Source: Ancylobacter koreensis (lineage in GTDB: Bacteria > Pseudomonadota > Alphaproteobacteria > Rhizobiales > Xanthobacteraceae). Taken from it: DNA of 64,000 nt. Of the stretch, positions 27,321-32,282 are shown in pieces. The notes under the pieces are model-generated. The model was not told where the DNA came from and made no database searches. It saw only the letters and a program-made list of their open reading frames with translations. The position numbers and the translations under genes were made by a program. The stretch is taken from assembly GCF_023016525.1 (NCBI RefSeq), contig NZ_JALKCG010000001.1:124001-188000 (forward strand), read 5' to 3'. Within the stretch, counting starts at the first letter, position 1. The number at the start of each line of letters is the position of its first letter.

Positions 27321-27803
27321 TCACGCCTTGTGATAGGGGTGGCCGGCGAGGATGGTCGTTACGCGGTAGACCTGCTCGGCCATCATGACGCGGACGAGCT
27401 GATGGGGAAAGGTCGCCCGCCCGAAGGCAAGCAGGCGGTCGGCCCGGCCGCGCGCGGCGTCGCTCAGCCCGTCGGCGCCGCCGATCAGGAAGCTCAGCGC
27501 CCGCACCCCGCGGTCGCGCAGCGCGGCGATCTCGGCGGCGAGTTCCTCGCTCGACATTTCCCGCCCGCGCGGGTCGAGCGCGATCACCGCCCCCGCCTCG
27601 GGCAGCGCGCCGATCAGCCCGCCGCCTTCCTCGCTCATGCGGTCTTCCGGCCGGCGCGCGGCGCTTTCGGAAATCTCGATCACGTCGGGGCCGGAGAGGC
27701 CGAGGGCCCGCCCTCCCTTGCCCGCGCGGTCGAGATAGCGCGCGCAAAGCTCCCGCTCGGGCCCGGCCTTCAGCCGGCCCACGGCAGCGATCACCAGCCT
27801 CAA
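27321..27803 (-). CDS. rlmH: 23S rRNA pseudouridine-1915 N3-methyltransferase RlmH
   Basis: SPOUT methyltransferase of 160 residues that methylates pseudouridine 1915 in helix 69 of 23S rRNA on assembled ribosomes. The SAM-binding knot is visible in [30 protein letters not shown] and [26 protein letters not shown], the last a near-invariant C-terminus. The start is TTG at 27803: AGGAG lies 5 bases upstream, there is no ATG in range, and the length then matches the family. It follows rsfS with 8 bases between stop and start. Confidence 0.93.
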
Positions 27804-27811
27804 GGCGGCTC

Positions 27812-28225
27812 CTAGCCGCGCGTCAGCTTCGCCGGACCGCCGGGAACGGCGGCCGACCACATCTTCTCGATATTGTAGAACCCGCGCACTTCCGGCTGGA
27901 AGACGTGGACGATGACGTCGCTGGCATCGATCAGCACCCAGTCGCAGGCCGGCTGGCCCTCGACGCGCACGCCCTTGACGCCACGCGCCTTGAGCCCCTC
28001 GACGAGGTGGTCGGCGATGGCGCCGACATGGCGCTGGGAGCGGCCGGAGGCGACGACCATGTAATCGGCGATGGTCGTCTTGCCGCGCAGTTCGATGGAA
28101 ACGACGTCCTCGGCCTTGTCGTCGTCGAGACGGGCGAGAACGAGGGCAAGAATCTCCTCGGCGTCGAACGACGTCTCGGAGACAGGCGCAGTCGCCGGGC
28201 TGGAGGCGGCTGCTGCAAGCGCCAT
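27812..28225 (-). CDS. rsfS: Ribosome silencing factor RsfS
   Basis: RsfS/Iojap protein of about 137 residues that binds L14 on the large subunit and blocks subunit joining when nutrients are short. The domain (about 25-130) contains [48 protein letters not shown] and [12 protein letters not shown]. The ATG at 28225 is used; a GTG at 28285 would add 20 residues with no family match. In related genomes nadD lies just upstream; here a 2-kb low-GC segment separates them. Confidence 0.93.
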
Positions 28226-28331
28226 GCTGGACAGGGGTCCGGATCCTCTCGTCTTGACCGCAAGGCACGGACGGACCTTCCGCACCGTGCCTGCCCCTTA
28301 AGGATAATGCGGATGGGGGCGTTCTTCAACC

Positions 28332-28359
28332 GGGGGGTGGGGAGGGGGGTGGTGGGGGG
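28332..28359 (+). repeat. G-run tract, G-quadruplex-capable
   Basis: Four runs of four to six G separated by one to four bases on the plus strand. It marks the left edge of the low-GC insert. A C-run tract (G-runs on the minus strand) at 30328-30347 lies at the right edge, overlapping the nadD stop. Confidence 0.6.
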
Positions 28360-28587
28360 CGCTAGACGGCCCCTCACCGAGGCGACAAGCAGAATCTGCT
28401 TTGGGGTGGGTTGCGCACGGTCTGCTTTAACATGGAAAACTAGGAAAACAGACATCTGCTGATGAGGAGTCTGGACCGATAGCAGCGTGTCGCAGTTTAA
28501 CGATAACTCAGCGAGGCCTGTCGTTTCACTACGCGTAGAGACCGAACCGATCAATAAGTCTATCAGTGGATAATTTAATCACACTCA

Positions 28588-28616
28588 TTGACATGAAAGC
28601 TCACCGTCAGTCAAAC
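28588..28616 (+). promoter_or_regulatory. Possible promoter of the insert gene
   Basis: TTGACA (28588-28593) followed after 17 bases by TCAAAC (28611-28616). The -35 is perfect but the -10 matches at only three positions. It lies 92 bases before the start codon at 28708 and is the best candidate in the leader. Confidence 0.35.
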
Positions 28617-28707
28617 TTTTGGCGGATAGCATATTGTCTGTACCTTACGCCATCGCCAGCTAGATGATAGAAATTTGGCGCCGCGCATGGGTCAAAGGGG
28701 GCGTCAA

Positions 28708-30132
28708 ATGCCAAGGTTTTCGGAATATTTTGGCTTAGGAAAAACCCAGCATGAACTAGATTTCGTCGACGTTAGCAATACCTACGATCTCCCCGTTTAT
28801 GTTGACCCATACGCGATCGAAATACAGGATGATACTTGGGCTAAAGAAGCCGCCGAACAAATCAGCCTTTTCTTTAGCGAAGTTCTCGCCGCGCTCCGAG
28901 ATGCAGACGATCACCGCGCTGAAGGCCTCATGTCACATCTCCGTGAACCCAAGGAGACCTTCTTGGGAGTTTCGAGCGAGGCTCCAAAAGGACGCGGTGT
29001 GGGCCGCCATCAAGCCTCGCAATTGATAAGCGCGATCAAGAAGAGCAGGGCCTTTCAAACAGGCTTGCTTAATGATTTTTCTGAGATGTCGCTCTACGTC
29101 GAGGGCATCGATCGGGACAAGATGTCCGATCTAACTACCAACATAATTCGCGGACTTCTCGTCGATTACACGCAAGAACAATGCGAATTACACGAGATCG
29201 AGACGCTTGAATATAATGGCCCCTCCCTATGGGACGGTGATCGCGGCAATTGGGTCGGTCGGAGTGTCAGGTTGCCATATATTGATGCCGACCCAATCCT
29301 GCTTGTTCCTAAGTATATTGTCCGCCGAAAGCTTTCACTGGACAGTCAGGAGTTCTACAACAAGCAAATCACGGATTTCTTGGTTGCCGAGAATTTGCGC
29401 GTCAATAGCTCTCTGGTCCAAACGATCAAGGGAAGAAGAAAGGTACGCAAGGGCGACGTTCGCGACAAGAATCCAAAATCCAAACCATTCATCGCGGACA
29501 TGGTTCGCGATCATCCAGAGCTTCTGGACCTCTACAAGGAGATCGCCGCGAAACAAAGTGCGATGCTAAATTTTGGCGACGAAAACCCAACTATCACGGC
29601 CGTATGTCAGGCGCTTGCTGATCGGCTGCCGAACATCCCAACTGGCGCCAAGCACGCGAATGAATACCACTCGCTCATCACGGGCGCCTTGACCGCGCTG
29701 TTCTATCCATCGCTGATTCTCCCACAAAAGGAATGGGAGATAAATCAGGGTCGCAAGCGCGTGGATATCGTTTACACGAACGCTGCCGAGACAGGCTTCT
29801 TCTCTCAGCGGCGAGGAGATCCACGTGTTAACGCAAATATAGTGATCGTCGAGTGCAAGAACTACAGTGACGACATCGCCAACAATGAACTGGATCAGTT
29901 GCTTGGCCGCTTCGACAATGATCGTGGTCGACTGGGTATCTTGACATGTAGAGAGGTTGACAACCCGCAAAGATTGTTGGATCGGTGCAAGGACGCCGCT
30001 GTACGCAACACTGGGTATGTCATCGTTCTGAAGGATGTGGAACTCCAAGCCATGCTTCAAGCGAAGGCTCGGCTCAACGACCATGTTGTGGAGGCCACCT
30101 TGCACGCCAAATTCAGGGAATTACTGGCGTAA
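28708..30132 (+). CDS. Uncharacterised protein with C-terminal PD-(D/E)XK nuclease signature
   Basis: A 474-residue soluble protein I cannot assign to a named family. The N-terminal part opens MPRFSEYFGLGKTQHELDFV, then DLPVYVDPYAIE; a mostly helical middle follows. The last 170 residues carry a restriction-endonuclease-like core: E320 in ANEYHSLITGAL, D353 in GRKRVDIVYTN, and E382-C-K384 in IVIVECKNYSDD, followed by NNELDQLLGRF and GRLGILTCREV. That order (E, D, then E-x-K) fits PD-(D/E)XK nucleases. AAAGGGGG lies 7 bases before the ATG at 28708. Composition is far lower in G+C than all neighbours, and it splits the rsfS-nadD cluster, both signs of transfer. A single-gene defence nuclease is a reasonable inference, not shown. 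No methyltransferase or helicase partner is present. Confidence 0.7.
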   Translation: MPRFSEYFGLGKTQHELDFVDVSNTYDLPVYVDPYAIEIQDDTWAKEAAEQISLFFSEVLAALRDADDHRAEGLMSHLREPKETFLGVSSEAPKGRGVGRHQASQLISAIKKSRAFQTGLLNDFSEMSLYVEGIDRDKMSDLTTNIIRGLLVDYTQEQCELHEIETLEYNGPSLWDGDRGNWVGRSVRLPYIDADPILLVPKYIVRRKLSLDSQEFYNKQITDFLVAENLRVNSSLVQTIKGRRKVRKGDVRDKNPKSKPFIADMVRDHPELLDLYKEIAAKQSAMLNFGDENPTITAVCQALADRLPNIPTGAKHANEYHSLITGALTALFYPSLILPQKEWEINQGRKRVDIVYTNAAETGFFSQRRGDPRVNANIVIVECKNYSDDIANNELDQLLGRFDNDRGRLGILTCREVDNPQRLLDRCKDAAVRNTGYVIVLKDVELQAMLQAKARLNDHVVEATLHAKFRELLA

Positions 30133-30333
30133 CAAGAAAGAAAACCAGGGACGCGGACGGCCCACGCTTTCATCATGAGATCTGGGGCGGCGGGTCTGCG
30201 AAAAACAAGGATGCCAATTCGACCAAATATCCGCTTTTGAGAACTAGCCATCGAAGTCTGTGCGTCTGGAATGGGGTCGCCCCCGGCCATAATGAGGAAA
30301 GGCGCCCCGCCCCTTGCCGACGGCACGCCCCCC
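30133..30333. other. Non-coding right junction of the insert
   Basis: About 200 bases with no supportable gene. The AT-rich composition continues to about 30240, then grades into native GC-rich DNA before the nadD stop. I see no clear intrinsic terminator for the insert gene. Confidence 0.6.
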
Positions 30334-30945
30334 TCACCCCTCCCCCCTGATCCGTGTCGACGACAGCGGCGACTTCAGGCCGTGCAGGAACACCCAGGCC
30401 GGCGGGCGCTGGGTCGCGAGGGCGGGGGCTTCGCTTTCGGGGCGGCGCCAGCGGGCGAGGGCGTGGGCGGCGGGGGAAGCCATGGCCGGCAGGGTGCAGC
30501 CGGGGCGGTCTACCACCGCCATCGGCACCAGCCCGGCAATGGCCTGCCAGTGCTGCCAGCGGTGGAAGGAGGCGAGGTTGTCCGCCCCCATGATCCAGAC
30601 GAAATGCACGGCGGGGAAGCGGCGCACCAGCGCCGCCACCGTGTCGTAGCTGTAGCGCGTGCCGAGCCCCGCCTCCAGCCCGGTCGGCACCAGCGCGGGA
30701 TGGTTCGCCACCGCGCGCGCCTGCTCCAGTCGCGTCGCCAGCGGGGGCAGGCGGCCATTGTCCTTCAGCGGATTGCCGGGCGTCACCAGCCACCACACGC
30801 GGTCGAGCTTCAGGCGTTTCAGCGCCAGCAGGCTCGCCGCGCGATGGGCAGCGTGGGCCGGGTTGAAGCTGCCGCCATAGAGCCCGACGCGCAGCCCCGG
30901 CGCCAGCGGCGGCAGGCGCCATTCCGCCGGCTGCGCCTCGGTCAC
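30334..30945 (-). CDS. nadD: Nicotinate-nucleotide adenylyltransferase NadD
   Basis: Adenylates nicotinate mononucleotide to deamido-NAD in NAD synthesis. The 203-residue product has the nucleotidyltransferase motif [23 protein letters not shown], the [12 protein letters not shown] loop, [15 protein letters not shown], and the C-terminal LSSTRIR. The second histidine pair is HAAH rather than the usual HxGH, a mild change. The GTG start at 30945 overlaps the proA stop (GTGA), implying coupling. The stop is embedded in a run of G/C tracts at the edge of the low-GC insert. Confidence 0.92.
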
Positions 30946-32282
30946 GGCCGGATCTGGCCGGTGCCGCGCACCCGGTACTTGAAGGAGGTGAGTTGCTCGG
31001 CGCCCACCGGCCCGCGCGCGTGCATGCGCCCGGTGGCGATGCCGATCTCGCCGCCGAAGCCGAACTCGCCGCCATCGGCGAACTGCGTCGAGGCGTTGTG
31101 CACGACGATGGCGGAATCGACCTCGTTCAGGAAGGTTTCGGCCACCGCCGCGTCCTCGGTGAGGATGGCGTCGGTGTGGTGCGAGCCATAGGTCTCGATA
31201 TGGTCGATGGCGGCCTTCACGCCGTCGACCAGCTTCACCGAGATCACCGCGTCGAGATATTCGGTGCGCCAGTCTTCCTCGCTCGCCGGCTTCACGCGCG
31301 GATCGACCGCCTGCGCCGCTGCGTCGCCGCGCACCTCGCAGCCCTCGCCGATCAGCATGGAGACGAGCGGGGCGAGCAGGCGGGCGGCATCGGCGGAATC
31401 GACCAGCAGCGTCTCGGCCGCCCCGCACACGCTCGTGCGGCGCAGCTTGGCGTTCTTCACGATGGTCAGCGCCTTGTCGAGGTCGGCGCCCCTGTCGACA
31501 TAGACGTGCACGAGGCCTTCCAGATGCGCGAAGACCGGCACGCGCGCCTCGCTCTGCACGCGGGCGACGAGGCTCTTGCCGCCGCGCGGCACGATGACGT
31601 CCACATTGCCGCCGAGGCCGGCGAGCATCTCGCCCACAGCCGCGCGGTCGCGGGTCGGCACGAGCTGGACGGCGTCCTGTGGCAGGCCGGCGCTCGCCAG
31701 TCCCTCCACCATCGCGGCGTGGATGGCGCGCGAGGAATTGAAGCTGTCCGAGCCGCCGCGCAGGATCACCGCATTGCCGGCCTTCAGGCACAGGCTGCCG
31801 GCGTCCGCCGTCACATTGGGCCGGCTCTCATAGATGACGCCGACGACGCCGAGCGGGGTGCGCACACGCTCCAGCCGCAGGCCGTTCGGCCGCTCCCAGC
31901 TCTCCGTCACCGTGCCGACCGGGTCGGGCAATTCGGCGATCTCCTCGACGCCGCGCGCGGTGGCTTCCAGCCGCGCCGCGTTCAGCGTCAGCCGGTCGAG
32001 CATGGAGGCGTTCATGCCGGCGGCCTTCGCGGCCTCCACGTCCAGCGCATTGGCGGCGAGTATGTCGCCGGCATGGGCGCGGATGGCGGCGGCGGCGGCC
32101 TTCAGCCCGGCGCTCTTGGTCGCGGCGGGGGCCAGCGCCAGCGCGCGGGCGGCGGCGCGGGCGCTAGCGCCGATCGCCAGCATCAGCGCGGCGACGTCCT
32201 CACCCTGCGGGCCGCGCGGGGCCGGCGCGCCGGGAAGGTTCCCGGTGGCGGGGGCGGCGCGCAGGGCAGAGGTGGCGGACAT
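30942..32282 (-). CDS. proA: Glutamate-5-semialdehyde dehydrogenase (gamma-glutamyl phosphate reductase)
   Basis: Second enzyme of proline synthesis: reduces gamma-glutamyl phosphate with NADPH. The 446-residue product shows [22 protein letters not shown], the cofactor loop [12 protein letters not shown], the active cysteine C286 in [29 protein letters not shown], and the C-terminal [23 protein letters not shown]. It is about 25 residues longer at the N-terminus than E. coli ProA. proB and obgE, often next to it, are absent here; the gene upstream is the divergent yihY-type gene. Confidence 0.95.

Follow-up and report, generated by a model that had tools for sequence, protein, structure and literature searches.

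Shedu SduA consists of one polypeptide, in which a variable N-terminal part is followed by a C-terminal PD-(D/E)XK nuclease domain of the DUF4263 type, and has no partner. PD-T4-6 is a tested defence system. The interval between the replication protein and the portal is a defence hotspot in P2-like phages, according to PMC9122126 and PMC9519451. In a stretch of 64,000 nt from Ancylobacter koreensis (the window, i.e., the whole stretch of DNA that was analysed), we analysed a 474-aa gene located between rsfS and nadD. This gene is rather likely to be a horizontally acquired, self-contained, one-polypeptide anti-phage or anti-plasmid gene that combines a C-terminal PD-(D/E)XK nuclease with an undescribed N-terminal domain (N-domain). 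That it is a defence gene is probable but not provable; the case is built on genomic contexts and the label of a PADLOC candidate, and the one controlled test of context did not support it.

The minus strand of the window encodes proA, nadD, rsfS, and rlmH (Pfam Aldedh, CTP_transf_like, RsfS, and SPOUT_MTase). An earlier note, made from the letters alone, had described a low-GC insert with a single gene between rsfS and nadD, and the composition bears this out. When the window was divided into 44 non-overlapping blocks of 1,425 nt, the block over the 474-aa gene had the lowest GC content (0.504); the mean was 0.695 (sd 0.035) and the second lowest value was 0.655. The GC content of 500-nt segments fell below 0.56 only at 28201-30350, and the GC3 was 0.58 in the 474-aa gene versus 0.85-0.93 in five host genes. 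All other ORFs of at least 80 aa in 28286-30333 overlap either this gene or the flanks, i.e., no second gene was found in the insert. Among the ORFs of the insert, no methyltransferase gene lies beside the 474-aa gene, and the claim that it is accompanied by no methyltransferase, ATPase, or antitoxin holds at the window locus, where the insert contains no partner gene. The features are listed in Table 1.

Table 1. Features of the rsfS-nadD interval, given as positions in the window.
Feature	Position	Strand	Basis or remark
rsfS, left flank	27812..28285	-	Pfam RsfS, E 3.4e-32
Conserved block 5' of rsfS, which forms the left edge of the cargo slot; putative promoter by eye	28223..28334	.	Nine within-group comparisons
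Insert, bounded by the conserved 5' block of rsfS and the conserved side of nadD	28335..30323	.	Edges from comparison with congener G020 (L059)
Alternative TTG start of the 474-aa gene	28675		
474-aa gene	28708..30132	+	ATG 28708, stop 30130-30132; relatives align from this ATG
N-terminal domain, residues 1-285, undescribed family	28708..29562	+	Models, conserved residues, no PDB fold match
C-terminal PD-(D/E)XK nuclease region (predicted), residues 296-474	29593..30129	+	AlphaFold2 model, Foldseek; module also behind other N-termini
D353 codon, predicted metal ligand	29764..29766	+	Identical in 9/9 aligned nuclease modules
E382-C383-K384 codons, predicted ExK catalytic motif	29851..29859	+	ExK identical in 9/9 modules
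nadD, right flank	30334..30945	-	Pfam CTP_transf_like, E 7.3e-16

The 474-aa gene is present as a single copy in its genome, and this copy is intact and lies outside any recognised mobile element. No tRNA was found in the window, no Rfam match on 27800-31000, and no sigma-70-like promoter in the insert. An integrated element with its own integrase was rejected, the insert having no integrase gene. An 18-nt inverted match near the insert edges (83%, G/C-rich; 28339-28356 and 30328-30345) was not taken as terminal repeats because short G/C-rich matches are easily found.

The gene was not found in any of 29 other genomes of the genus. At an E-value of 1e-3, searches with the single protein matched 5 of 149 sampled genomes of the family and 16 of 397 of the order, and a search with alignment A3, from which the partial relatives L005 and L006 were left out, matched 10 of 385 sampled genomes of the class; these counts include the window's genome, the three samples overlap, and most of the matches cover the N-terminal part only. 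The absence from the congeners, together with the foreign composition, upholds the proposal that the gene arrived by transfer, and no vertical inheritance at this locus with native composition was seen.

Five loci carry relatives with 61-72% identity: two in Bradyrhizobium and the others in Thalassospira, Aurantimonas, and a Hyphomicrobiales MAG. Only two of these (L002 and L003) are intact and full length. The copy in L004 (10001-11433) is apparently frameshifted and the one in L005 (10001-11092) lacks the N-terminus, i.e., some copies decay; the copy in L006 stops at the contig edge. In both Bradyrhizobium loci, a second copy of the same nuclease module follows the relative (L002:11465-12526 and L004:11457-12530), and in the L002 gene it is preceded by a Mrr_cat domain (Pfam). 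We regard these second genes as partner-like. Using alignment A3, relatives were detected in nine viral contigs, of which one is a fragment; no viral contig matched when the single sequence was used, and none of 50,697 phage records matched at E 1e-3. Of 72,556 plasmid records, 95 matched, three of them over at least 80% of the protein.

The AlphaFold2 model of the full protein, calculated from 12 sequences, had a pLDDT of 87.4 and a pTM of 0.88. In this model, residues 314-414 follow the PD-(D/E)XK core order alpha-beta-beta-beta-alpha-beta (helix 314-332; strands 336-342, 353-358, and 378-384; helix 392-399; strand 409-414), with an extra helix at 363-369. D353 is located at the start of the second core strand, and E382-x-K384 at the end of the third. 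These three residues and N385 are identical in all nine aligned nuclease modules, among them that of a Paenibacillus plasmid protein whose N-terminus is unrelated and those of the second genes in both Bradyrhizobium loci. The nuclease motif read earlier from the sequence is retained for D353, E382, and K384, but not for E320: residue 320 is a tyrosine, and the nearby E319 in alpha-1 is not conserved.

In a Foldseek search of the PDB with the full model, the top seven rows were restriction or nicking endonucleases. EcoT38I was the best (E 9.5e-3, probability 0.99), and MspJI, FokI, and the BspD6I nickase were among the seven; the query TM-score was at most 0.27 for these rows, and no row reached E 1e-3. 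Three of the seven best rows from the viral library were named restriction endonuclease, none at E 1e-3. PDB sequence and profile searches returned nothing meaningful, Pfam gave no family for the 474-aa protein up to E 10, and NCBIfam gave one chance match only, far below its cut-off. The REase-like fold expected at the C-terminus was recovered in both the AlphaFold2 model and the Foldseek search. The C-terminal region is likely a PD-(D/E)XK nuclease, a predicted DNA-cutting enzyme. In type II relatives (L009, L080, and L081), both domains are under strong purifying selection, with dN/dS values of 0.03-0.09; for the window protein, dS was saturated.

Residues 1-290, modelled alone, had a pLDDT of 88.7 and a pTM of 0.87. 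A Foldseek search with this N-domain yielded no PDB match (best row E 1.8, no row above a probability of 0.06), and the domain matched no Pfam family. We aligned 20 hand-chosen N-domain proteins from Pseudomonadota, Cyanobacteriota, Actinomycetota, and Bacillota; a Staphylococcus locus (L136) was excluded, its gene being shorter than the match. D27, P34, E80, G87, G95, D137, S140, D141, T155, and P201 are identical in all 20 proteins, and D33 in 19. The low-confidence loop of the model, residues 87-93, falls in a conserved Gly-rich stretch, which suggests a putative ligand site around this loop.

Fourteen of the 20 proteins have a long C-terminal region. By eye, this region is PD-(D/E)XK-like in most of the fourteen, and it comes in at least two kinds (ECKN/EMKN and GPVDFK...EMK). 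The other six stand alone with 283-315 aa, all on plasmids, in Acinetobacter, Bacillus, Rhodococcus, Pseudarthrobacter, Micrococcus, and Lacticaseibacillus. The Lacticaseibacillus gene (L133:942-1793) is located on a plasmid of 6.8 kb with four listed genes. On the Rhodococcus and Micrococcus plasmids, similar small genes without a Pfam or PADLOC family lie upstream of the stand-alone gene (L130:2879-3295, 138 aa, and L132:2898-3296, 132 aa). Because the N-domain exists without the nuclease, the nuclease is not essential to all members of the family. The conserved N-terminal block, which the earlier note had assigned to sensing or self-control, is not a mere appendage of the nuclease but a widespread domain that also occurs alone.

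The two-domain layout, the MspJI and FokI matches in the Foldseek search with the full model, the lack of an adjoining methyltransferase, and the Mrr_cat gene beside the relative in L002 would also fit a restriction-like enzyme that cuts DNA entering the cell. The N-domain would then be a DNA reader as in MspJI, which recognises a base modification or a DNA structure directly and responds to no other cue. We consider this unlikely: no solved DNA-binding fold was matched by the N-domain on its own, the residues that are invariant in it are acidic or glycine rather than basic, and it is also found without the nuclease. Another reading takes the N-domain as the principal enzyme, which might, for instance, synthesise or degrade a nucleotide signal, and the nuclease as an accessory output. 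The invariant D, E, S, and Gly-loop residues in the 20 chosen proteins, the stand-alone forms of 283-315 aa, and the lack of a known fold are compatible with it; however, no catalytic motif of a known enzyme was recognised, and we give this reading very little weight.

The N-domain is the newest element of the locus: it is widespread, it can stand alone, and the libraries searched contain neither a Pfam family nor a solved fold that matches it. We tentatively raise the possibility that it founds a new class, with an unsolved fold and an invariant site of acidic residues, serine, and a Gly loop. Members of such a class would act by themselves on small plasmids or as fusions to PD-(D/E)XK nucleases that can be interchanged. 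They might be general modules for sensing invaders or processing ligands, present in at least four phyla, and one form would be kept in this genus in the swappable slot for single genes upstream of rsfS.

In the P2-like viral contigs L076, L077, and L078 (the latter two encode the same protein), the relative directly follows the portal gene, which itself follows a gpP-type terminase gene. The portal was called through Pfam Phage_portal on L076 and the terminase through Pfam on L077, the other calls being made by similarity; the other border of the hotspot, the replication gene gpA, was not identified in these three contigs. An integrase adjoins the relative in L097 and is close by in L071, and an AIPR gene lies beside the relative in L098. 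A few ORFs from the relative, we found a MmeI-type restriction-modification gene (L077), DUF4062 and DUF4145 (L096), and TIR_2 (L099). The ten named neighbour proteins were picked by eye and are uncontrolled. None of the neighbours examined for a defence role came from the full-length loci L003, L073-L075, and L100.

The earlier note had suggested a survey for an enrichment of homologues near defence genes. A matched PADLOC survey of 13 locus pairs from the same genomes was flat in this respect; 11 of these loci harbour distant relatives, and full-length relatives are found only at L096 and L097. At E 1e-15, the 102 neighbour proteins gave matches to eight families and the 100 control proteins to 14, with at most two members per family around the relatives and one each in the controls; these are counts of members per family and not of distinct proteins. 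Two of the eight families are M36B, the partner in the candidate PDC-M36 system of that relative.

The finding of relatives in viral contigs and on plasmids, including the one of 6.8 kb, agrees with the suggestion that the gene is kept as cargo. These relatives, and the frameshifted (L004) and truncated (L005) copies, would also be explained if the gene helped a phage or plasmid against other phages or plasmids, through superinfection exclusion or plasmid competition, and had no lasting use in this chromosome. However, the window copy is intact and outside recognised mobile elements, and the relatives are under purifying selection; we regard this explanation as quite improbable. It differs from the anti-phage or anti-plasmid reading in the beneficiary, whereas the chemistry is the same.

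RsfS was found in all 30 genomes of the genus. In 18 of these, the end of nadD is 157-355 bp from rsfS (measured between alignment ends), and in the window and 11 congeners the gap is 2.0-6.5 kb. The splitting of rsfS from nadD is no peculiarity of this gene, as 11 of the 29 congeners also have 2.0-6.5 kb there. In eight of these 12 genomes (the window, G010, G012, G013, G024, G002, G016, and G018), a gene with a GC content below 0.6 (0.43-0.57) lies beside rsfS. The eight slot genes are mutually unrelated (BLASTP, E 1e-3), although a 50% relative of the G002 gene occurs at another place in the G018 gap. G010 and G024 match at 93% over a backbone of 4.3 kb, yet the former has a 226-aa gene and the latter a PD-T4-6-type protein kinase gene (L063:788-2107, plus strand; PADLOC E 1.9e-121). 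A search of PMC9519451 for the name PD-T4-6 gave no occurrence. G012 and G013 match at 94% and 93% over two stretches and have slot genes of 510 aa versus 257 aa, and G027, 87% like both, has no slot gene. G016 has a 220-aa slot gene and G029, with a backbone much alike, has none. Six of the seven other slot genes were scanned (the one of G002 was left out); one matched PADLOC and two matched Pfam. The 510-aa gene (L061:15618-17150, minus strand) has no Pfam or PADLOC family and contains GWDYVVEL...AFVQVKS, which by eye is PD-(D/E)XK-like.

In nine of nine within-group comparisons, the conserved block 5' of rsfS stops between +111 and +129 relative to the rsfS start used (about position 28334 of the window). 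Its last letters are TTCAAC in each of the 13 genomes, and CGGGG comes next in 11 of these. Judged by eye, this block appears to hold the rsfS promoter, and the edge of the slot may for this reason be set by selection on the promoter rather than by a recombinase. Clear truncated copies of the 3' half of nadD were found inside the gap in G012, G013, and G027 (L061 2400-2740, L062 1690-1965, and L064 3942-4168; rsfS on the minus strand, at the left); G029 has a weak match of 94 nt. The truncated copies are within about 160 bp of the slot gene in two of the three loci. We interpret the truncated copies as traces of recombination in the gap. The rsfS-nadD gap (L059-L069 and the insert of the window) is a recurrent single-gene cargo slot, in which much of the backbone is common to close species and one low-GC gene differs.

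A solo, partnerless nuclease gene of foreign composition in a recombining region, where three congeners have truncated nadD copies, might alternatively encode a nuclease that is selfish or rearranges genomes and that cuts to promote its own spread in a homing-like manner. This is hardly credible, as the relatives are located at different places and not at one site, and unrelated non-nuclease genes also occupy the slot; because of the latter, the slot does not depend on the 474-aa gene. A homing endonuclease was rejected, since the insertion sites of the relatives differ.

We infer DNA as the substrate, gating of the nuclease by the N-domain, and defence as the benefit. The N-domain would recognise a cue of the invading phage or plasmid. 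This cue, a small ligand or a feature of nucleic acid, would be bound by the conserved residues D27, D33, E80, D137, S140, and D141 and by the Gly-rich loop. The cue-bound N-domain would place or release the nuclease, which would cut DNA using a divalent metal held by D353 and E382, with K384 taking part in catalysis. Phages and plasmids would spread such genes as solo cargo, and in this genus the gene would have lodged in a permissive slot upstream of rsfS. The predicted nuclease fold and the conserved motif, the absence from 29 congeners and the foreign composition, the viral contigs with the position after the P2-type portal, the integrase, AIPR, DUF4062, TIR_2, and MmeI neighbours, the PDC-M36A match, the PD-T4-6-type slot gene of G024 (with another gene on the shared backbone in G010), and the purifying selection in type II relatives argue for this reading; the flat PADLOC survey, the single PADLOC match among six scanned slot genes, the existence of the N-domain without a nuclease, the lack of a Foldseek row at E 1e-3, and the non-conserved Glu of alpha-1 argue against it. 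If the defence reading is right, the gene adds a nuclease defence made up of one gene, whose sensing or enzymatic domain is undescribed and widespread, fits on tiny plasmids, and is easily tested. The rsfS slot would then offer a way to find more solo defence genes by position and not by defence islands, because close species share the surroundings of the slot and differ in one low-GC gene, one of these being of the PD-T4-6 type.

We compared the protein to described families and systems. In the literature searched, preprints being outside its scope, no paper naming PDC-M36 was found; searches by title or the start of the abstract found no paper on the 474-aa protein family, those on a rsfS/nadD hotspot gave only unrelated papers, and a search on Shedu led to a survey of defence in Leptospira. 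The window N-domain matches PDC-M36A of the PADLOC-DB 2.0.0 candidate PDC-M36 (PDLC04597; residues 2-222, E 2.4e-41). The true M36A in L013 scores E 1.7e-228 over its full length, whereas the window protein matches on its N-terminal half and is about 21% identical to the M36A-type proteins of L013 and L028. A D...ExKN motif is common to the window nuclease region and three M36A-type proteins (L013, L028, and L134). Two small M36B genes follow M36A in L028 and L134, but none is present in the window insert; because M36B is absent, the window gene is not a member of PDC-M36 as defined. The PHROGs v4 family phrog_27295 is matched almost end to end (window residues 3-472 on profile positions 2-468 of 469, E 1.9e-96); it is a phage family without known function, whereas the window copy is chromosomal and outside a recognised phage.

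EcoT38I, MspJI, FokI, and Nt.BspD6I share with the window model a nuclease core of the same kind (Foldseek, E 9.5e-3 or worse), but the window N-domain alone matches none of them. The Mrr_cat domain of Mrr-type enzymes (type IV restriction) is absent from the window protein and present in the neighbouring gene in L002. The layout of the window protein resembles that of Shedu SduA by analogy; however, it has no DUF4263-type domain (no Pfam match, and PDC-M36A as the only PADLOC match). Compared to the cargo of the P2/P4 defence hotspots, as described in PMC9122126 and PMC9519451, the relatives in L076, L077, and L078 follow the portal, whereas the window gene occupies a chromosomal slot on the side of rsfS.
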